From: a virus
Direction: 5' to 3' (one strand)
Length of the DNA: 20,566 nucleotides
Virus record (IMG/VR): IMGVR_UViG_3300009011_000063
Span: 1-20,566 of that record
Part shown: positions 2,829-20,566 of the stretch, one piece after another
Layout: every line of letters begins with the position of its first letter
Numbering within the stretch: the stretch's first letter is position 1
Made by a program: the position numbers and the translations under genes
The notes under the pieces: generated by a model
What the model saw: the letters and a program-made list of their open reading frames with translations, nothing else
What the model was told of the DNA's origin: nothing
Databases searched by the model: none

Positions 2829-3015
2829 TACATTAAAAGTAGGGCGTTTCGAGATCAGAAACACTGAAAAAGGGATTGAGTACTATATAGATGGTGAGCA
2901 AGTTCATTATCCCGAACTTGCTTGGGACTCACCAGAGCGTATCACTCTTGATGTACTTAAAGAGAAGTACGACCATGAAAGCCGTGATAGTGGTTTGAAG
3001 TGGGAAGTTAGCTAA
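2818..3015 (+). CDS. Small protein, paralogue of the 981-1151 product
   Basis: 65 aa. The ATG at 2818 is chosen over an earlier in-frame start because a GGAGG lies five bases before it. It overlaps the end of the 87-aa gene by 11 bases. The sequence RFEIRNTEKGIEYYIDGEQV aligns with the 56-aa protein encoded at 981-1151, and both end in an L-x-VL helix. No membrane segment or catalytic motif was seen. Its end overlaps the end of the leftward RipA-like gene by eight bases. Function is unknown; the conserved YxIDG core suggests a small beta-hairpin plus helix fold. Confidence 0.65.
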   Translation: MKIDTLKVGRFEIRNTEKGIEYYIDGEQVHYPELAWDSPERITLDVLKEKYDHESRDSGLKWEVS

Positions 3016-3700
3016 CACTTCTCTTGTCAAATTCTGCTTTATAAGACGAAATGTTTGATTTTTTTACTTTATTCCAAAATAACATAGGTAATGCAATTGA
3101 TATTAAGGAATATATACAGATGAAGATAAAAGCATGACTTAAACTTTCTATTGAGAAAAATGAAAATGACAGTGAGTAAATAAAAACAACCATCCAAAGC
3201 AAACATAATGTCTTTGCTACATATATGTTTATTTTACTAACGGATGGTTTTGGTAAGTCCAGTTTTGCGGTGATTTTGTATAGGTCACCAGATATATAAA
3301 ACTCTAACATATCCAAGTTTTTTTCCCAGTTTTCTTGCCAGAATTTACTGCCTTGGTTAGCTGCCAAGAATGCCAACCCGAAAATAAAACCCATTATGGA
3401 GAGTGCAGGGGTTAACAACTTTATGAATTCATTGCTACTGTTAAAAGAAAATCCTATCAATCCTGATAAGGCTGTCATGAATACCCAAAAGTAATTTGCT
3501 CTTTTCCAATAAAGATCAATCTCAAACTTTCTAATGTCGTGTGCTTTTGAGTACGCTTCTTTTATTTTTAAATACTCAATTGATTCAACCAGTTTTCCAC
3601 AAGAAAACGTTGCTAGTATTTCTCCACCATTAATATCTTTATCAAGTAACTTAGTCAAATAATCGGAATCTTGCTTTCTTACAGAAATATTATCTTCCAT
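3008..3700 (-). CDS. Four-TM membrane protein, RipA-like
   Basis: 230 aa from the ATG at 3700; a GTG at 3715 would add five residues, and neither start has a strong ribosome site. An N-terminal soluble helical part ends in DLYWKRANYFWVF, followed by hydrophobic segments at about 70-87, 94-113, 160-181 and 187-209. The WKR-aromatic entry into the first membrane helix and the two-plus-two TM layout resemble proteins annotated as RipA-family octameric membrane proteins, first described in Francisella; this assignment is from memory of the pattern. SLATT-like two-TM effector proteins are a looser alternative. It contains no AGTACT and is very A+T rich, so it is probably an imported accessory gene. 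It converges on and overlaps the 2818-3015 gene by eight bases. Confidence 0.6.
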   Translation of the reverse strand: MEDNISVRKQDSDYLTKLLDKDINGGEILATFSCGKLVESIEYLKIKEAYSKAHDIRKFEIDLYWKRANYFWVFMTALSGLIGFSFNSSNEFIKLLTPALSIMGFIFGLAFLAANQGSKFWQENWEKNLDMLEFYISGDLYKITAKLDLPKPSVSKINIYVAKTLCLLWMVVFIYSLSFSFFSIESLSHAFIFICIYSLISIALPMLFWNKVKKSNISSYKAEFDKRSVS

Positions 3701-3745
3701 TAAGTTTGGTTCCACTGATTACAGTTTGTTGGTACTATATACCTT

Positions 3746-5685: not shown

Positions 5686-5710
5686 ATGATGGTGAATTAT
5701 TCACCATCAT
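5686..5710. terminator. Hairpin between convergent operons (likely bidirectional terminator)
   Basis: ATGATGGTGA (5686-5695) and TCACCATCAT (5701-5710) form a perfect stem with a five-base loop. On the minus strand it is followed by TTTTAG, an intrinsic-terminator layout for the leftward three-gene operon. On the plus strand it follows the lipoprotein stop by two bases. It overlaps the last codons of the DUF4326 gene. Confidence 0.55.
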
Positions 5711-6287
5711 CAAGTTCATTTAGATATTGTGCCAACACATCGCCATGACAAGCATAAGGTTTGCAATGACATCCCAAAGTATGGCCTCTTAATGCCTTCA
5801 GCTTTTCTTTAAATTCGGTGCCACCTTTAAGATAATCGCGATCAAAATCATATTTGAACTTTCGTATTACTTCATCACGATCACCATCAGCACCTATTGC
5901 ATATGGATTACCCCAAAGGGTGCCTCTACCACAATAAGTATCGAAGTGATCACCTCTATCTTTATTTGATACGTAAGTGATTTTATCTTTGATATATCGA
6001 ACAGGTATCTTTTCAGATAGAACTTCGTAAGGAGCAATAAATACAGGTTTTAATGCAGAATCAAAGATTACAGCATGAGTTAAGTCAACAGAGAAAGGGT
6101 CAGCTAAAACTTCAGGAGCAAGTTTGTTCAACACGTCAGCAGTAACAAACTGACTGATCAGATTATGATGGTCTTCAAAATAAAATACTTGATAGTCATT
6201 TGACTTAGAGAAAATGCGAGAAAGTTTACGCTCAAACTTTCCCCTTGATGCAAAGTCAGGATGATACATTATCAGTACTTTCATCAT
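5697..6287 (-). CDS. DUF4326-domain protein
   Basis: 196 aa. Residues about 1-100 are an alpha/beta domain (MKVLIMYHPDFASRGKFERK start) that I do not recognise. The rest is DUF4326: TYCGRGTLWGNPYAIG, then an R-x-EVI-x-K-x-x-DF segment, then LRGHTLGCHCKPYACHGDVL. The paired Cys/His cluster (GCHCKP and CHGD) is the family signature. The start overlaps the DUF488 stop (ATGA-type overlap), making this the last gene of the operon. The biochemical role of DUF4326 is not established; the motif layout suggests a nucleotide- or nucleobase-related enzyme. An intrinsic-terminator-like hairpin covers the end of the gene. Confidence 0.75.
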   Translation of the reverse strand: MMKVLIMYHPDFASRGKFERKLSRIFSKSNDYQVFYFEDHHNLISQFVTADVLNKLAPEVLADPFSVDLTHAVIFDSALKPVFIAPYEVLSEKIPVRYIKDKITYVSNKDRGDHFDTYCGRGTLWGNPYAIGADGDRDEVIRKFKYDFDRDYLKGGTEFKEKLKALRGHTLGCHCKPYACHGDVLAQYLNELDDGE

Positions 6288-6724
6288 ATCAAGTGCTTAA
6301 CCTCAAAATCAGTATCCCAATGGCTGTTCAAGTACTCTATCACAAGACGACGATGACAGTGATGGGGTTTGTGTTCACTACATAGCAAGCAGCTATCTTC
6401 AATGACTGATTTGTCAATACGCTCAATGTTTCTTTTTGCCAACAAGTTCAAGAAGTTACTCTCGTAAACTTCCCACGAAACATTTCCTTTCTTATAGGGA
6501 TCTAACATTTCCTTAGTTGGGGCAAGGTCAGGCATATGAACATAATCAACATTACAAATTTCTTTTAAGAAGTACTTCAGATCATTCTTCTTAGCGAAGC
6601 CAGCAAGCTGAGAGACATTATTAAGCCGCACATCAACTAAAGTTTTCAGGTCAGGCTGAGATTTTATTAGATTACAGAACTTTGCAGCAGGTTTTTCTGT
6701 GAAGCCTATAGAAAATACTTTCAT
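6284..6724 (-). CDS. DUF488-domain protein
   Basis: 146 aa from the ATG at 6724, preceded by AGGA; a TTG two codons upstream is less likely. DUF488 features in order: KVFSIGFTEKP at the start, LVDVRLNNVSQLAGFAKK at about 29-46, HMPDLAPTKEML with the conserved Pro-x-Leu-Ala region, and SCLLCSEHKPHHCHRRLVIE near the C-terminus. The C-x-x-C-x-E and C-HRR motifs are the hallmark of the family. It is a soluble cytoplasmic protein of unproven activity; a nucleic-acid or nucleotide substrate is generally suspected. It lies two bases after the dual-OB gene and overlaps DUF4326, so all three are translated from one message. Confidence 0.8.
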   Translation of the reverse strand: MKVFSIGFTEKPAAKFCNLIKSQPDLKTLVDVRLNNVSQLAGFAKKNDLKYFLKEICNVDYVHMPDLAPTKEMLDPYKKGNVSWEVYESNFLNLLAKRNIERIDKSVIEDSCLLCSEHKPHHCHRRLVIEYLNSHWDTDFEVKHLI

Positions 6725-6726
6725 TA

Positions 6727-7407
6727 TCAATCCTGTATTTTTATCAAAGCTGCTAAAAATTTATAACATTCATTACGCTCAGTGAAAGGAGCCATGCTTA
6801 ATGTAGCGTAACATTCACCAAAGGGATAGTCCCCCTCAGACTTTTGTCCATATTCGGAATAGATATTTGTATCTGTTATGGAAATTTTGTAGTTCACCGA
6901 ATTATATCTAAATAACCCATGAAAACGTTTTCTGCCATTAAATGATGAAGTACTTATACGAATAGTTAAATCTTCTAATTTTATAAAATAAAGACTATTA
7001 GTCTGGGCAGTAACTAAATTAGAAGGAAAACTATCATTAACACCATAGCTTTCGTATGGGTTAAGCCAGAGCGAATGGGGTGTTTCAACAAATTGCTCTA
7101 AATGACTAACAGGCATTCTTCCAACTTTTTTCCATTTGAATGCAGTGTCGATAAATATGTTTTCGGCTTGAACAGGGTGGTTTGCTGCTCTCAATAAATG
7201 AATATCGACAATATCCAACACTTCAGGAATTCTGTAGTTTTGAAATTGGATTTCTCTAGTCGTAAGAGCATCATTACCATCAGGTAGGCTATCACCTACA
7301 GGACGGATCCAGATATGGTGCTGATTTTCATGCCATTTTCTTCCAGCGATACAGTAGTTACGACGCTTAGCTGAAGCTGCCAATAAAACTAATCTTGTAC
7401 TTGTCAT
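6727..7407 (-). CDS. Dual OB-domain protein
   Basis: 226 aa from the ATG at 7407, chosen because AAGGAAA lies seven bases upstream; a TTG at 7470 in the same frame has no ribosome site. The opening LVLLAASAKRRNYCIAGRKW followed by HIWIRPVGD is typical of proteins called dual OB domain-containing. A second beta-rich half follows (SLYFIKLEDLTIRISTSS, and KRFHGLFRYN). OB folds suggest binding of nucleic acid or nucleotides. It is the promoter-proximal gene of the three-gene operon, with a TTGACA -35 box upstream, and DUF488 and DUF4326 follow without gaps. Confidence 0.7.
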   Translation of the reverse strand: MTSTRLVLLAASAKRRNYCIAGRKWHENQHHIWIRPVGDSLPDGNDALTTREIQFQNYRIPEVLDIVDIHLLRAANHPVQAENIFIDTAFKWKKVGRMPVSHLEQFVETPHSLWLNPYESYGVNDSFPSNLVTAQTNSLYFIKLEDLTIRISTSSFNGRKRFHGLFRYNSVNYKISITDTNIYSEYGQKSEGDYPFGECYATLSMAPFTERNECYKFLAALIKIQD

Positions 7408-7432
7408 TGAAATTTCCTTTTCAAAAGCACAA

Positions 7433-7461
7433 TCAATAAGACAACTCTCAAAGAATGTCAA
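7433..7461 (-). promoter_or_regulatory. Promoter of the dual-OB/DUF488/DUF4326 operon
   Basis: On the minus strand a perfect TTGACA (7456-7461) and a weak TATTGA (7433-7438) are 17 bases apart, with the start codon at 7407. CACAATCAAT is directly repeated at 7428-7437 and 7462-7471, bracketing the promoter. A perfect 12-bp palindrome, ACGTTATAACGT, lies just upstream at 7477-7488. The repeats and palindrome are candidate operators. Confidence 0.45.
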
Positions 7462-7551
7462 CACAATCAATGTGTTACGTTATAACGTTAGTTTCTCCTC
7501 GGCTCCACTTTAATCGGGAGTTTTCGCAGCGTGCTCCTTGATTTATATATA

Positions 7552-10558: not shown

Positions 10559-14184
<3,626 letters not shown>

Positions 14185-14186
14185 TC

Positions 14187-14474
14187 ATGAGGGCGTTTAC
14201 TACTTCACAGTTAAACGTCCTGATTGATACTTTCGGTGAACCATTGGTACTTACTGATGGTTCACAACTTAACGTTATCTTCGAATCACAAACAGTAGCT
14301 ATTGATACTTCTGAAGGCTTCGTTGAAACGCAAGAAACCTACCTTACAACTAAAAAAGGCTTGATGGATTATTCCAGTACTTTCACGTACCAGGGGAAAC
14401 TTCAGGTTGTCTATAACATTGTTGATGACTTATCAGGAATCAACAATGTCTATTTTCGGGAGTCCAGCACATGA
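14187..14474 (+). CDS. Head-tail joining protein, FII-like
   Basis: 95 aa, starting two bases after the capsid stop. It is a small beta-rich protein (QLNVLIDTFGEPLVLTDGSQ, TYLTTKKGLMDYSSTFTYQ) in the position of lambda FII, which binds below gpW and attaches the tail. The TFGEP opening with a short beta sandwich fits head-tail joining proteins of this group. Its end overlaps the next gene by four bases (ATGA). The call rests on size, position and general fold; identity to FII itself is low. Confidence 0.6.
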   Translation: MRAFTTSQLNVLIDTFGEPLVLTDGSQLNVIFESQTVAIDTSEGFVETQETYLTTKKGLMDYSSTFTYQGKLQVVYNIVDDLSGINNVYFRESST

Positions 14475-14869
14475 ATTTAATCAAAATTAAGAATCATGTC
14501 AGTGATTCCCTTTTTTCGTTAGGACTTCAGGTAAGAAAAGCAGAAACAATCAATCAGGATGCAGGTGAGTACATTTTAATACTAACCAACTTATTAGAAC
14601 AAAATGAAAACATTCCCTTTGGTATTCAAAACTACAGTTCTCTAACCATGGATATTGCATGTACTTCAAAGGATGAATCTAAAGTACAGGATGTCATGGT
14701 GCAAGTATATGACTTAGTTAGGACTGTAGATTTCCAGAGGTCTTTCAGTACTGAACTTCAAATCAATGTGAGTACTATTACAGTACTTTCCATTGCAGAG
14801 GACACAGATACCACCAGTGGAATAAATACCTTGATGTTAACAGTTCAAATGAATTACATATCGAGGTAA
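14471..14869 (+). CDS. Tail terminator protein (lambda gpU-like)
   Basis: 132 aa, practically the same length as lambda gpU (131 aa), and next in order after the FII-like gene. The pattern is an N-terminal helix (NLIKIKNHVSDSLFSLGLQV), then strands, a helix (KVQDVMVQVYDLVRTVDFQR) and two final strands ending in LMLTVQMNYISR; this alpha/beta layout is that of gpU and related tail terminators. It would cap the tail tube and join it to the head. The four-base start/stop overlap with the gene before suggests coupled translation. No separate gpZ-like gene is seen. Confidence 0.65.
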   Translation: MNLIKIKNHVSDSLFSLGLQVRKAETINQDAGEYILILTNLLEQNENIPFGIQNYSSLTMDIACTSKDESKVQDVMVQVYDLVRTVDFQRSFSTELQINVSTITVLSIAEDTDTTSGINTLMLTVQMNYISR

Positions 14870-14873
14870 ATTA

Positions 14874-17800
14874 ATGTCATCCATCTTTCATGGTGGAAAT
14901 ACCTACATCTTTTACAATGAAGCGGCAGATAACGTTCAGCCAAACAACATTGCTTACAAGAATATTGACCAGCTAGGTAAATTTCCACAAGTAAAACTAA
15001 ATTCTAGTACTACCAGCATTGAAACATACAACGAAGAATACGCCGCGGTACTGGCAGGTAATCTTTCAATCGATTCAGTTTCAATCGTTGTCCATTACAT
15101 TGCAGATAATGAATCACATAAGTACCTTGATACAGCATATGCTAATGGTAAAAATTTCCAAATCAAAGTATCTCTATACGAATCTCAGGACTCACTAGAT
15201 CAACATTACATAATTCTTGGGGGCTACATCAGTGGTCTCCAGGACAGTGCAGATCAGAATGAGATCTATAACCGCACCTATACCTTCACGGCAGAAGATC
15301 TCATTGCCCGTGGAACAGCTACTGATCCTGCAACACTACACGTTGGTGATTTTGGTGTTGGTTCTGACGGTGAAACGACACCACACTACGAAGCAGTAAA
15401 TCCCACGGGTAATAGTTTTATCAAATTACCAGCACAACGCGAAGATAACCCTATCAGTGCTGATATGGGGGGGATTGCCTATGTTGATAATGGTGGCGAA
15501 CAGACCGCACAACTTGCAATGCCTGAAGTAGGTGATCTTGGCCTGTACATCAAAAATACCGATCACGATTGGACAGAGCTACCCGGTAAGAGTAAGAACG
15601 ATACCTACTATGTACCGATGGCCCGTACCGTTAATGGGAAGGCGTTAAGTACTAACATCACACTATCCAGTAGTGATACCGGTTCTGTACCTCTCACTCG
15701 TACCGTTAACGGCAAACCACTATCGGCAGATGTCAACCTTACCAGTACTGATACTGGTTCTGTACCTATTGAACGTACAGTCAACGGAAAGCCCTTATCG
15801 ATGGATGTAACCTTATCTAGTACTGATACAGGTTCTGTACCCGTTTCTACGAAGGTTAATGGCAAAACTTTATCCAGCGATATAGTACTGAACAAGTCAG
15901 ATGTAGGGCTTGACGCCGTTTTGAATGCTGTACAGTTAGTCGCCAGTAAAAATCTGTCTGATGTATCAAGTGCGGCAACTACACGAACAAATCTCAGTGT
16001 TTATTCAAAAGCTGAAGCAGTACCCGTAACACGAACAATTAACGGAAAGCCATTATCGGCAGATGTTGCATTGTACAGTACTGATACTGGTTCATTCAGC
16101 ATTGCAAATAACCTAAGTGAAGGTGTTCCGGGTACTATTCGTACAAATATAAGTGCGGCAAAATCTGGTAGTAACTCTGACATTACTTCAATGACTGCAC
16201 TTTCTGGTCCATTGCGTTTAGGTGGTGATGGTCAGGCTGATGGCGATGCAATTACTTTAAGACAACTCCAAGCAGCAACTGCTGGTGGTGGTTCGAACGG
16301 TGCAACGCTCAACGGGGTGATGAATAACTTCCTGGGTGCTGTTGAATGGTTTAATGGTACACGTGCAGCATTACCAGCAGGGCATGTAGCAGCAGACGGA
16401 CAACTACTTAAGCGTGCTGATTACCCGGATATCTGGAACGCTATCAGTACTGGCGTGTTCCTCAGTAATACTGATACTGCATGGCAGGCTACACCTACAA
16501 GCCGTGGTGTTTACTCTACTGGTGATGGTTCAACAACTTTCCGTATGCCAGACATTAACGGTGTATGGGTTCATCCAACTGACAGTACTCTAAATTCAAT
16601 CCCTGCTTTGTTCCTTCGTGGTGACGGTACAGTAGCGAATACGGGTAGTGGTGCGGGTGTCATTCGTTGGGGTGCTGCACCTAACATTACTGGTGCGTTT
16701 AATATTCTTGCTAATGGAGCATCACCGGGAACGCATTTCAATACAGATGCTTTATCTGGTGCTTTTTACCGCACTTCAAATACAACAGGAAGTACTCAAG
16801 ACGGTTGGACATCAAACTTCAATAGTAACTATACAGGTGGCACAGGTATTGATGCTAACCGTTCAAGTACAGCCTATGGACGAGATTCGACTACAGAAGT
16901 ACGCCCAAACTCAGTAAAGGGTATCTGGCTTATCCGTGTAAATGGATTATTCAGTGCCTCAAATACCAACTTCAACGTAATTAACGGCATAACAGCAGCC
17001 CCGGCAACTGGTGCAGTTGTTTACGGTGGTGACTCACGAAGTGCATTGCAATTAAATGGTGCAGATTACTTAGTAGCACGTATGCGAAGTAAAGTAGTTG
17101 GTGGTGGTGCTAAATCCGTAGCATTTGGATTAGTTGATAGTACTGGATCTTCAGTAGTCAATACTGAATGGACATTGCCTAGTACTGGTGGTGAGTTGTT
17201 AAGTAAATCGGAAACCGGATATACCAGTATCAACGGTAAAACGGGCGGTACAATTAGTAGTGCGACTACAATTAATGGACTTCTAACTACCAATGCATCA
17301 ATTAACACTAATGGAGCTATGACTGTATGGTCTCAACCCGCTTCTGCAACTACTGGATCATTCCTCAACGCACCTGGCCTTAAATCACGTTTAAACACTC
17401 GTGGTGCAAACGGGGATTCTTTGGGTGCTTATGGTGTAATGTATATGCAAGAATATGTTGGTAATTATCACCAACTAATATTCAACTTGAATGGTTTTAG
17501 TTCAGACTATAACTGGTTCATGCGTGCTGGCGGTCAAACATTTTCACCACTAGGTGAATTGCAATATTCTGGATCAGATATGCGTTTAAAATCTGATTTC
17601 ACTCAAACACCAGACGGTGCATTAAACAGAATAAACACTATTGGTTCAGTTGAGTTTACACTTAATGCAAGTGGACGCCGTTGCCGTGGATATGTAGCAC
17701 AGCAATTAGCAGAAGTAGATTCGATGTACACGTTTGAGGGTGGTGAATCAGTAGATGAAGATGGAAATACATTCACAGTACTAAATGTAGATCAAACGGC

Positions 17801-17924
17801 ATTAGTTTCTGATTTAATCCTTTCCGTTCAAACTCTCACATCTCAGATTGCAGATCTTCAATCTCAAATCAATGCGATGAAAGGTAATGCCGAAACTTCA
17901 TCAGACACCTCCTCAACACGATAA
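14874..17924 (+). CDS. Tail tube domain fused to tail fibre (collar and S74 chaperone)
   Basis: 1016 aa, with GAGG eight bases before the ATG. Residues about 1-155 match the tail tube protein encoded at 17980-18438, including SIVVHYIADNESHKYLDTAY against SITVNYLADNEVHSQLVAAN. Residues 190-246 are a linker. Residues 247-345 and 383-407 hold five 25-residue repeats of the VPxTRTVNGKPLSADV type common in long tail fibres. Residues about 486-580 are a tail-collar domain (FLGAVEWFNG to FRMPDINGVW, then FLRGDGT). A beta-rich shaft follows. The C-terminus is an S74 intramolecular chaperone beginning SDMRLKSDF, with predicted self-cleavage before Ser901 and a coiled-coil tail. It sits between the tail terminator and tail tube genes. 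A fibre attached to a tube subunit is unusual. Confidence 0.85.
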   Translation: MSSIFHGGNTYIFYNEAADNVQPNNIAYKNIDQLGKFPQVKLNSSTTSIETYNEEYAAVLAGNLSIDSVSIVVHYIADNESHKYLDTAYANGKNFQIKVSLYESQDSLDQHYIILGGYISGLQDSADQNEIYNRTYTFTAEDLIARGTATDPATLHVGDFGVGSDGETTPHYEAVNPTGNSFIKLPAQREDNPISADMGGIAYVDNGGEQTAQLAMPEVGDLGLYIKNTDHDWTELPGKSKNDTYYVPMARTVNGKALSTNITLSSSDTGSVPLTRTVNGKPLSADVNLTSTDTGSVPIERTVNGKPLSMDVTLSSTDTGSVPVSTKVNGKTLSSDIVLNKSDVGLDAVLNAVQLVASKNLSDVSSAATTRTNLSVYSKAEAVPVTRTINGKPLSADVALYSTDTGSFSIANNLSEGVPGTIRTNISAAKSGSNSDITSMTALSGPLRLGGDGQADGDAITLRQLQAATAGGGSNGATLNGVMNNFLGAVEWFNGTRAALPAGHVAADGQLLKRADYPDIWNAISTGVFLSNTDTAWQATPTSRGVYSTGDGSTTFRMPDINGVWVHPTDSTLNSIPALFLRGDGTVANTGSGAGVIRWGAAPNITGAFNILANGASPGTHFNTDALSGAFYRTSNTTGSTQDGWTSNFNSNYTGGTGIDANRSSTAYGRDSTTEVRPNSVKGIWLIRVNGLFSASNTNFNVINGITAAPATGAVVYGGDSRSALQLNGADYLVARMRSKVVGGGAKSVAFGLVDSTGSSVVNTEWTLPSTGGELLSKSETGYTSINGKTGGTISSATTINGLLTTNASINTNGAMTVWSQPASATTGSFLNAPGLKSRLNTRGANGDSLGAYGVMYMQEYVGNYHQLIFNLNGFSSDYNWFMRAGGQTFSPLGELQYSGSDMRLKSDFTQTPDGALNRINTIGSVEFTLNASGRRCRGYVAQQLAEVDSMYTFEGGESVDEDGNTFTVLNVDQTALVSDLILSVQTLTSQIADLQSQINAMKGNAETSSDTSSTR
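15612..15908 (+). repeat. Four tandem 75-base repeats in the fibre gene (a fifth at 16020-16094)
   Basis: Four consecutive units at 15612-15686, 15687-15761, 15762-15836 and 15837-15908 encode VP-x-x-RTVNGK-x-LS-x-x-(I/V)-x-L-x-S-x-DTGS; a fifth copy lies at 16020-16094. Most units contain one AGTACT near their end, or a GTACC at the unit start. Such repeats in fibre shafts allow length change by recombination. Confidence 0.8.
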
Positions 17925-17979
17925 ATAAACAAGAAAGTACTGAAAGGAATTCGGTACTATTACTTTATAAGGATTTTAA

Positions 17980-18438
17980 ATGGCTTTTGATATTCAAAGT
18001 GGTGCAAATATTCGTGCATCAATCGGTACTGCTGGAAATACCATTAGTACTACATTTACAGAAATTTCAGAACTCGCTTCATTCACCACTTCTGGCGGTA
18101 CATCAACAGTTATTGATGTGGTTACCTTCAACAGTCCATACAATCGTAAGCTATTGGGTACTAAAGCAGTTGCAGACATTTCGATCACAGTTAATTACCT
18201 TGCAGATAATGAAGTTCATTCACAACTTGTGGCAGCAAATGAAAACCAAACTCGTATTCAGCTAAAACTTGAGTACTTCCAGGATGCTACTAAGACTGAT
18301 GGCTTCTTTGTGGTCTATAACGGATTCGTATCTGGCGATCAATTAGCTGGCGATAAAGATTCAGTAGTAACACGTGAGTTTACCTTTGCAGTAGATGGCG
18401 GCCCGGTAGATAGCGGTCTAATCGACGTAACACCATAA
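17980..18438 (+). CDS. Tail tube protein (lambda gpV-like)
   Basis: 152 aa, with AAGGA seven bases before the ATG. It is the major tail protein, stacked as hexameric rings to form the tail shaft. The predicted fold is the tube beta-sandwich with one helix: TFTEISELASFTTSGGTSTV, then VVTFNSPYNRKLLGTKAVAD, then ISITVNYLADNE, and EFTFAVDGGP at the end. It lacks the C-terminal immunoglobulin-like domain of lambda gpV. The position before the G/GT genes and the tape measure gene fixes the role. A paralogous domain forms the N-terminus of the preceding fibre gene. The 55-base gap before it contains an AGTACT and a GGTACT. Confidence 0.85.
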   Translation: MAFDIQSGANIRASIGTAGNTISTTFTEISELASFTTSGGTSTVIDVVTFNSPYNRKLLGTKAVADISITVNYLADNEVHSQLVAANENQTRIQLKLEYFQDATKTDGFFVVYNGFVSGDQLAGDKDSVVTREFTFAVDGGPVDSGLIDVTP

Positions 18439-18454
18439 TATAAGGGATTACTCG

Positions 18455-18757
18455 ATGAATTTAGAACAACTAAAATCTGCTTTAAAGCCAGAACTACATA
18501 AGATCACTCTCACTAATGGTACTGAACTATACGCACATCGCCCAAAGCTTAGTGATCTTGAGAAATGTACTACTGCTAAAAGTACTCTAATCCATTGTAT
18601 TACTGATGAAACAGGTTATCACGTCTTCGCCGACGGTGAAGAGGCTGGAAAGGTTGATATCAATGAGATTGATACAGTACTAGCCAATGAAATTTATGTG
18701 AAAGCTCTGGAGTTGTGGAACGCTGAAACTACGCAGGATGAAGTAGAAAAAAAATAA
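18455..18757 (+). CDS. Tail assembly chaperone G-like (zero-frame product)
   Basis: 100 aa, with AAGGG before the ATG. The start NLEQLKSALKPELHKITLTN followed by LSDLEKCTTAKSTLIHCI and an acidic C-terminal half (DINEIDTVLANEIYVKALEL) fits tail assembly chaperones that follow the tail tube gene. These bind the tape measure protein during tail assembly. The gene ends in GAA AAA AAA TAA, so the slippery A-run lies directly at the stop codon. Most ribosomes should terminate here, and a fraction would slip back one base and continue into the T frame. Confidence 0.8.
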   Translation: MNLEQLKSALKPELHKITLTNGTELYAHRPKLSDLEKCTTAKSTLIHCITDETGYHVFADGEEAGKVDINEIDTVLANEIYVKALELWNAETTQDEVEKK

Positions 18758-19152
18758 GAACCGGTGATCCCCGCATCAACTTTTCACTAAAAATGATACA
18801 CAAGCGGGGCTTGTCGCCGGAAGAACTTAATCAGCTTGATCCAGAACTATTTGAAGCACTACTAATTTATGATGCAGTTATAGAACCTAATGGTGCAAGG
18901 GTAGATCAAATCAGGTATGCGAATCTTTGTCATCTAATTCTAATGTCATCGGGAAATCTTACAGAGCAGGGTATGAAGAAGGCCAAAGTAAACGATTGGG
19001 ATCTTTTTGGGTTGCTCAGTAATAAAAGTACTAAGCAAATTGCATCAGAATCAGCAAAGGCAAAAGAAGAAGAACAAAAACGCAACTTTAATGCACTTGC
19101 AGAAAGTATTAAAGATGCTGCATTAAAGGGTAAGAAGAATGGCAAAAAATAA
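18455..19152 (+). CDS. GT-like tail assembly chaperone made by -1 frameshift
   Basis: The second frame is open from the slippery site and needs no start of its own. An in-frame ATG at 18793 exists, but the coding region clearly begins earlier (IRTGDPRINFSLKMIHKRGL). Slippage of -1 on AAAAAAA at 18748-18754 joins the G frame to the T frame, giving about 232 aa (100 plus 132). The T part has PEELNQLDPELFEALLIYDA and a Lys/Glu-rich C-terminal helix (about 19030-19149). In lambda G and GT work in a fixed ratio, and the same translational layout occurs widely in long-tailed phages. The tape measure gene overlaps its end by 14 bases. Confidence 0.8.
18748..18754 (+). promoter_or_regulatory. Slippery heptamer for -1 frameshifting
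   Basis: A AAA AAA followed at once by TAA in the zero frame. Re-reading the last A leads into the open T frame (ATA AGA ACC and on). The heptamer fits the X-XXY-YYZ rule. No downstream pseudoknot was assessed. Confidence 0.75.
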
Positions 19153-20566
19153 GCAACAGATGATTTTTGAAGTCACGGGTAATGTTACGGGACTTCAGCG
19201 TGCTTTAGCAACAGGTGCAAATTCGCTTCAAACATTCGGACAACAGTCTGATGATCTTTTTGGTGGTTTCACTACTCAATTTGCAGAAATGACAGAGCGG
19301 TTCAAGGGATTCAATACTGGTATTCTTGGTGTAGCGGGTGCGGCCGGATTATTAGTTGGTGGTATCTATTCTGCAATTGATTCAAGTAATGAATTCGTCA
19401 AGACGTACAACGAAGTAAGTAAGGCATCAGGATTAACGGTAACTGAATTACAACAACTTCAAAAAACGTTTAATGGTGTTGGTTTTGATGTTGAAAAGTT
19501 TGGGGATATTAATCGTGATGTACTCGATCATTTGGGTGATGCTTTTCGTGATGGTAGTGGGCCAGCAGAAGATCTCAAAACTTACGGTGTTAACCTACAG
19601 GACTTGAATAAGTACTTAAATCAGACAGACGGCGGTATTAAATCACTTGCTACAGCATTCTATACAATGCAAAAGGCAGGTAAGAACAATGCCGAAATCA
19701 CTAACGCCCTTGAGACAATGGCGAGTGATGGTAGTAAATTGATTAGTACTTTTAAGCAGTACAATGATGTTGCCGATTTGATGAATGGTATTCATTCACA
19801 AACCGCTGTATTAACTGATGAGAATGCAAAGAAGTTTGCAGATTGGGATGCAAAGATTACTAATCTAAGTACTACATTCCAACTTTGGAAAGCTAACGCA
19901 CTTGCACCTACACTCGATGATATTCAAACCTTATTCGATTTAATGAACAAGGATTGGTCTAAGACTGATTTCATGCAAATGTTCCGTAACTTCTATTACG
20001 GTGGCGATAACGCGATAGCTAAAGTACTTCGACAGATTGATGGGGTAGATCCCTCTACAGTATTCGGTACTAAAGAGTGGAATGAAAAGCATAAAGATAC
20101 CAGTAAGCCAGGTACTGATGAACCGAAGCCTGTCTCAGGTGGTTGGGTAAATCAGGCGAAAGCAGATACAGCAGCTAAAGCAGCAGCACAGAAGGCAGAA
20201 GCGGCAGCGAAACAGGCTCAAGCTAAACGAGTTCAGGCACAGAAGAACTTAGAACAATCACTATCTCAGATTGGCATATCTGAAGGCGATATTCGTATCA
20301 AAACGTTCAACCGTCAGCAAAATGAGTTAGTAGCAAAGATCAATGAGTCTTCTAAAACACTCCAACTTTCTGAAGCACAAACTACTTCCTATCTGACTCA
20401 GGCATATGATTCCCGTACTAAGGCATTCAAAGCCATGATTGACGATATGATTGGGTACTCAGATCCCAATAAGGGATTGAAGCAGCTATCAGACAATATC
20501 GCGGCAGTAGGAAGTAATATGAGTAACGGTCAGGCTCATTGGTTACTGCAACAGCATAATCAGAGA
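19139..20566 (+). CDS. Tape measure protein, 5' part (continues past window end)
   Basis: The frame is open from the ATG at 19139 to the last base (476 codons) without a stop; the gene overlaps the end of T by 14 bases and has an AAGGG/AAGAAG ribosome site. The start MAKNKQQMIFEVTGNVTGLQ is typical of tape measure proteins. A hydrophobic segment (ILGVAGAAGLLVGGIYSAID, about 62-81) follows, then KASGLTVTELQQLQKTFNGV, a pattern seen in phage tape measure proteins. An Ala/Lys/Gln-rich helix follows (ADTAAKAAAQKAEAAAKQAQ). The product sets tail length and is injected with DNA. The C-terminal part, which usually carries any lytic domain, is outside the window. Confidence 0.9.
   Translation, partial: MAKNKQQMIFEVTGNVTGLQRALATGANSLQTFGQQSDDLFGGFTTQFAEMTERFKGFNTGILGVAGAAGLLVGGIYSAIDSSNEFVKTYNEVSKASGLTVTELQQLQKTFNGVGFDVEKFGDINRDVLDHLGDAFRDGSGPAEDLKTYGVNLQDLNKYLNQTDGGIKSLATAFYTMQKAGKNNAEITNALETMASDGSKLISTFKQYNDVADLMNGIHSQTAVLTDENAKKFADWDAKITNLSTTFQLWKANALAPTLDDIQTLFDLMNKDWSKTDFMQMFRNFYYGGDNAIAKVLRQIDGVDPSTVFGTKEWNEKHKDTSKPGTDEPKPVSGGWVNQAKADTAAKAAAQKAEAAAKQAQAKRVQAQKNLEQSLSQIGISEGDIRIKTFNRQQNELVAKINESSKTLQLSEAQTTSYLTQAYDSRTKAFKAMIDDMIGYSDPNKGLKQLSDNIAAVGSNMSNGQAHWLLQQHNQR

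Follow-up and report, generated by a model that had tools for sequence, protein, structure and literature searches.

The window analysed here is a 20.6 kb virus fragment whose + strand encodes the head and tail module of a siphophage. The genes run in the order small and large terminase, portal, an S78 protease/major capsid open reading frame (ORF), head-closure-like, terminator-like, a long gene joining tube and fibre parts, the tube gene, two chaperone-like genes and the tape measure gene. What we take to be the terminase, portal and terminator genes were named from gene order and from reading of the sequence. The probable tail terminator (14471..14869, + strand) has no family match and was assigned by position, its order being that of Vibrio relatives, where a tail-completion gene precedes the tube gene. 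In these Vibrio relatives, which have no fusion, the terminator and tube genes stand side by side. Downstream of the tube gene, two + strand ORFs within 18455..19152 (18455-18757 and 18793-19152) resemble tail-assembly chaperones (weak PHROG matches, 0.017 and 0.007) and precede the gene assigned by position to the tape measure protein (19139..20566, + strand), which is cut by the window end and has a full-length homologue of 734 amino acids in locus L002.

The remaining head-side and accessory genes gave three separate observations. The S78 prohead protease and the HK97-type major capsid protein apparently form one ORF (12403-14184), the TTG start of which was assigned mechanically; equivalents of this single ORF occur in L002, L035-L037 and L006, and Vibrio relatives have two genes. 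Near the terminase, on the − strand (5697-7470), lies a three-gene cassette encoding mSLOG-DUF4326, DUF488 and dual-OB domain proteins; two of its genes match the PADLOC candidate defence system PDC-M45 (M45A and M45C), and the cassette is kept in a Pantoea prophage (L012). The accessory region also carries, at 3008-3715 on the − strand, a gene of the 8xMP membrane protein family with a weak PADLOC match to Hydrolase-TM.

The fusion gene (14874..17924, + strand) is an ORF of 1016 amino acids that matches both PHROG 158 and tail-fibre PHROGs within one protein, with all parts encoded on the + strand. Its N-terminal tail-tube domain, seemingly a duplicated major tail protein (residues 1-152, 14874..15329), is supported by hhalign, AlphaFold2 and Foldseek. 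The conserved linker domain that follows (residues 153-245, 15330..15608) was defined by alignment and forms beta strands in the AlphaFold2 model (residues 181-236); it is retained by all members of the fusion family, including that of Escherichia phage DCP80, at 27-64% identity to the window. Fibre shaft repeats occupy residues about 246-443 (15609..16202), where direct reading of the sequence gave the motif TVNGKxLSxxVxLxxxDTGSVP and tail-protein PHROGs matched in several stretches. Residues 444-733 (16203..17072) form a region like the T5 lateral tail fibre (match to PDB 8hqz_d), which includes a tail collar domain at residues 489-526 (16338-16451) scoring 23.7 bits against Pfam Collar, just below the cut-off of 24. 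The C terminus is a Peptidase_S74 intramolecular chaperone (residues 901-1016, 17574..17921), for which PF13884 scored 26.3 bits over residues 901-948, above its cut-off of 22; self-cleavage before Ser901 is predicted from the sequence. An earlier note on this DNA had read the protein as a tube domain extended by fibre repeats, a collar and S74, about 860 extra residues in all, and the Pfam, PHROG and PDB matches agree with that reading.

Homology and fold of the two tube domains

The major tail (tube) protein proper is encoded directly after the fusion gene by an ORF of 152 amino acids (17980..18438, + strand) that matches PHROG 158 (E = 6e-22). The lambda-type tube families TTP_11/12 and Phage_tail_3 of Pfam also match this ORF, below the gathering score. 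Residues 1-155 of the fusion match the same PHROG, 'major tail protein' (E = 1e-9), and align directly, gap-free across 114 residues, with the 152-residue protein (28% identity; BLASTP, E = 6e-19, the value for one single comparison). Profile–profile comparison of the fusion-domain family with the tube-protein family by hhalign gave a probability of 99.8 over 142 columns (E = 8e-28).

AlphaFold2, given 16 unaltered homologues, modelled residues 1-250 of the fusion as a beta sandwich with one helix (residues 80-91) and an unstructured loop (residues 47-61), in keeping with the tube fold, in which a beta sandwich has a helix at its flank and a long stacking loop. Confidence was moderate (pLDDT 74), and one of the five models stood clearly above the others. 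Foldseek returned the tail tubes of lambda (gpV), 80alpha, NF5, Sf11, monocin and SPP1 as the best PDB matches to this model, followed by Hcp, with TM scores on the target of about 0.55-0.66 for single-domain tube proteins; no fibre-anchor fold was among these best matches. A sequence search of the PDB with the tube profiles yielded chance matches only, and the tube fold emerged from the fold search. The outcome that the earlier note had named as refuting its reading, a baseplate or fibre-anchor fold for residues 1-160, was thus looked for and tube folds were found, and the note's claim that both adjacent genes encode the tail tube fold is borne out by PHROG 158, hhalign and Foldseek. As judged from profiles and the predicted model, residues 1-152 of the fusion share the siphophage tail-tube fold. 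Where synonymous sites were unsaturated, dN/dS of the tube domain was about 0.03-0.16, and the tube part is therefore under strong purifying selection.

Recurrence of the fusion and exchange of fibre tips

A fusion accompanied by a separate tube gene was found in at least 14 loci (phages or prophages), the window included; these comprise the window, IMG/VR loci, DCP80 and three prophages found among 149 Pantoea-family genomes. One IMG/VR scan with alignment accounted for 13 loci, and matches occurred in 4 of the 149 Pantoea-family genomes, each with one long frame (813-1188 amino acids) and one short frame (154-180 amino acids). Two loci, L020 (448 amino acids) and L026 (154 amino acids), were left out, their fusion ORFs being cut off in short metagenome-contig stretches. 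Across the at least 14 loci, the fusion ranged from 698 to 1446 amino acids and the tube protein after it from 149 to 164. The pair sits between the tail terminator and chaperone genes in at least 14 phages or prophages, its two genes adjacent or separated only by a fibre chaperone or a further fibre gene. The fusion is thus an open frame in all of these loci, and we rejected an assembly or frame artefact as its source. A search for the same fusion in related phages, suggested earlier, has in this way brought up at least 13 further loci. Wider sampling gave no fusion besides the Pantoea one among 369 genomes of the class, the Pantoea fusion alone plus three lone short tube matches among 395 genomes of the order, and no match among plasmids. 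The tube–fibre fusion is rare.

In a tree of tube domains, the fusion domains formed one clade (support 96/91) and the tube proteins of the same phages another (91/87), with the divergent DCP80 included; five tube proteins from phages or genomes with no observed fusion served as the comparison set and formed a third group (100/97). This division of the two kinds of domain into clades fits a single old duplication that would have preceded diversification of the phage group, although the exact place of DCP80, on a long branch, is unsure. As a separate matter, the DCP80 record itself (PQ671644.1, L006), labelled Straboviridae, looks chimeric: a siphophage terminase-to-tail module fills its first 25-26 kb and is followed by T4-like genes (motA, rIIA).

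The fibre part has relatives of its own. One is the L-shaped tail fibre of the T5-like phage DT57C, matched by residues 444-733 (PDB 8hqz_d, E = 1.7e-53); another is a tail fibre of AAS21, a T5-like Pantoea phage, to which residues 390-1016 are 48% identical over 92% of their length. In the AAS21 fibre the match starts about 53 residues from the N terminus, which leaves no space for a tube domain ahead of it, so this fibre has a different anchor.

Among fusion relatives, identity to the window tends to drop from the anchor outwards, with higher-identity blocks in between. S74 was found in the fusions of the window, L016, L018, L019, L022 and L035. The L027 fusion, 67% identical in its anchor, is without S74, and an ORF judged Tfa-like by reading lies between it and the tube gene; L036 has a Tfa gene in place of S74 (Caudo_TAP), the L037 fusion ends in a different tail C-terminal domain, and no chaperone was recognised for the DCP80 fusion. 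Judged by these sequences, fibre tips and their chaperones (S74 or Tfa) are swapped while the tube anchor stays, and exchange of a tip with its matching chaperone over a constant anchor is how receptor-binding side fibres behave. In DCP80, a fibre-like ORF of 745 amino acids with the N terminus of a long-tail-fibre distal subunit lies between the fusion and tube genes (L001 10137-12374); it and the fusion are perhaps a two-part or branched side fibre.

In Pantoea RIT-PI-b, whose fusion has a 75% identical anchor, the tape measure gene is followed by genes for a distal tail protein (PHROG 1302), a hub-like and a small protein, and a central fibre that is J-like; beyond the J-like gene come small ORFs and a lysozyme. 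Gene order after the tape measure is similar in G045, G076, G098 and DCP80. Past the tape measure, these five complete tail modules showed no further fibre recognisable by S74, collar or Tfa, as searched by PHROG scans of the Pantoea and DCP80 proteins and by ORF reading for G045, G076 and G098. With no second side fibre recognised there, these phages probably have the fusion as their side fibre. A collar-like gene was likewise not recognised in the tail modules examined.

A proposed tube ring as fibre anchor

The closest known arrangement is that of T5, in which p140, a duplicated tube protein, forms an extra ring between the tube and Dit (PMC10038345), and three lateral fibres hang on this ring via the p132 collar (PMC10038345; PMC10713586). 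A similar tube-like extra ring is formed by gp54 of T4 (PMC10038345). Like T5 p140/p132/pb1 (TTMP/LtfC/LtfA in DT57C), the fusion would combine a duplicated tube protein, making an extra ring, with trimeric lateral fibres, and its fibre is homologous to the lateral fibres of T5-like phages (8hqz_d, AAS21). The two differ in construction: T5 uses three separate genes and a 12-subunit collar, whereas here the tube domain and fibre form one polypeptide encoded beside the tube gene, and the p140 ring is a pseudo-hexameric trimer whereas each fusion chain has a single tube domain. With its tube domain joined to the fibre and no collar-like gene recognised, the fusion falls outside the T5 p140/p132/lateral-fibre system. 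We regard it as a variant of the specialised tube ring that carries lateral fibres.

On the mechanism we consider somewhat more probable than its alternatives combined, a single duplication of the tube gene in the ancestor of the phage group would have been followed by joining of one copy to a lateral tail fibre, yielding a tube subunit with a fibre behind its tube domain. S74, or the Tfa protein in relatives, would fold the fibre as a trimer and so deliver three tube domains together. A six-subunit ring could then be closed by two fusion trimers or by one trimer and three ordinary tube subunits; two trimers per hexameric ring are plausible, and the mixed ring is an equally good solution on present evidence. 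The outcome would be a special end ring, probably at the distal end, bearing one or two trimeric side fibres. We favour the distal end because of the p140 precedent and the T5-like fibre; incorporation of the fusion in the tail, its ring position, its copy number and its ligand are inferred. The earlier note had placed fibres on some rings of the tube or on a special ring at the tail end or neck, which fits; its further suggestion that receptor binding could occur along the shaft is not supported, and T5 p140, the nearest precedent with a solved structure, favours one special end ring.

The fusion ring might instead adjoin the terminator, at the end of the tube nearest the head, with its fibres acting as whiskers of the neck comparable to the collar fibres found in lactococcal phages. 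The fusion gene lies directly between the terminator and the tube gene, on the head side, in the window and its relatives, a place that would suit a neck ring equally well, and siphophage gene order often mirrors virion position; but a tandem duplicate adjoins its parent wherever its product ends up. Likewise, residues 364-661 in the fibre part of L018 match PHROG 2370, 'neck passage structure', but the distal fibre belongs to the T5 lateral-fibre type, located at the tail tip, and the N terminus of known neck passage proteins is BppU-like rather than tube-like (PMC6669499). We consider a neck position unlikely. The neck passage structure of TP901-1 (ORF51) and of 936 phages does resemble the fusion in its proposed ring, trimeric fibres and carbohydrate-binding tips, but it has a BppU-like N-terminal ring domain and, in TP901-1, a gene at the end of the structural module. 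By the published definition (PMC6669499), the fusion, whose N terminus matches tube folds, is not a neck passage protein; a lead that the lactococcal protein has a tube-like N terminus proved wrong, the papers describing a BppU-like domain.

Co-polymerisation with the ordinary tube protein, such that a minority of shaft rings or subunits bear fibres in the manner of SPP1 gp17.1* or 936 TpeX, would accord with a tube domain that keeps the whole fold, with the 3:1 mixture of two tube forms in SPP1 (PMC8718954) and with the large binding modules along the tail of 936 phages (PMC6669499). However, the two domains share only about 28% identity, each having family-specific residues, as expected of dedicated neighbours and not of interchangeable subunits; the RKL of the stacking loop of tube proteins is lost in the fusions; and trimeric fibres force three tube domains together. 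This arrangement therefore seems rather unlikely to us. The broader idea of fibre-bearing subunits at several levels of the shaft, allowing side-on host binding and a three-/six-fold match solved inside the tube wall, we hold to be improbable. TpeX and gp17.1* resemble the fusion in that a host-binding or FN3 module sits C-terminal to a tube domain, but they arise from the tube gene itself by frameshifting and add one CBM or FN3 domain, whereas the fusion is a paralogue encoded separately, in which fibre and chaperone make up some 860 residues. As a one-frame ORF upstream of the tube gene and in a separate clade, it is not a frameshift-extended major tail protein.

The differences separating the two tube domains are distributed across the domain, with no single stacking face standing out, and so do not place the ring; tube-conserved positions are lost in the fusions about equally in the stacking loop (5/16 kept) and elsewhere. 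Large divergence and loss of conserved stacking-loop residues could also mean that the tube domain docks externally, on the tail tip or on Dit, and never rings the tape measure. Yet the domain is under purifying selection and all members retain it whole, stacking loop included, which makes such docking very improbable.

T4 gp54 and BplB of phage P1 resemble the fusion in being tube-fold proteins additional to the main tube protein, but these are proteins of myophages and carry no fibre; P1 BplB is a tube paralogue of unresolved role (PMC9024508). The repeats, collar and S74 or Tfa chaperone of the fusion family are of the same kinds as in lambda Stf/Tfa and further side fibres with S74 or Tfa. 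Such known side fibres are held at the tip non-covalently by an N-terminal part of their own, DT57C being an example; in the fusion, the tube ring itself would be the fibre anchor, covalently. The DT57C study states that receptor-recognition parts were on the baseplate or on podovirus neck proteins in every phage structure available at the time (PMC10713586). We found no description of a tube–fibre fusion in the open-access papers searched, subscription papers and preprints being outside the scope of the search. The fusion offers a system in which the seating of a three-fold fibre on a six-fold ring can be tested, as well as a natural blueprint for the display of large trimers on a phage tail.

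An RNA hairpin before the tube gene

Between the fusion and tube genes lies an RNA hairpin with a 9 bp stem (17936..17958, + strand; z = −2.75). Hairpins with z from −0.6 to −7.9 occur in the same gap of relatives (L015, L016, L018, L019, L021-L024, L027 and L035-L037), so that the place is kept while the sequence changes; the L019 group has a perfect 14-bp stem (z = −7.9), and the hairpin in the DCP80 gap is terminator-like. The element, on which our reading of the fusion does not depend, may be a 5' stabiliser or processing site that raises the tube protein above the fusion. In some relatives, a folded stretch is also present downstream of the tube gene.
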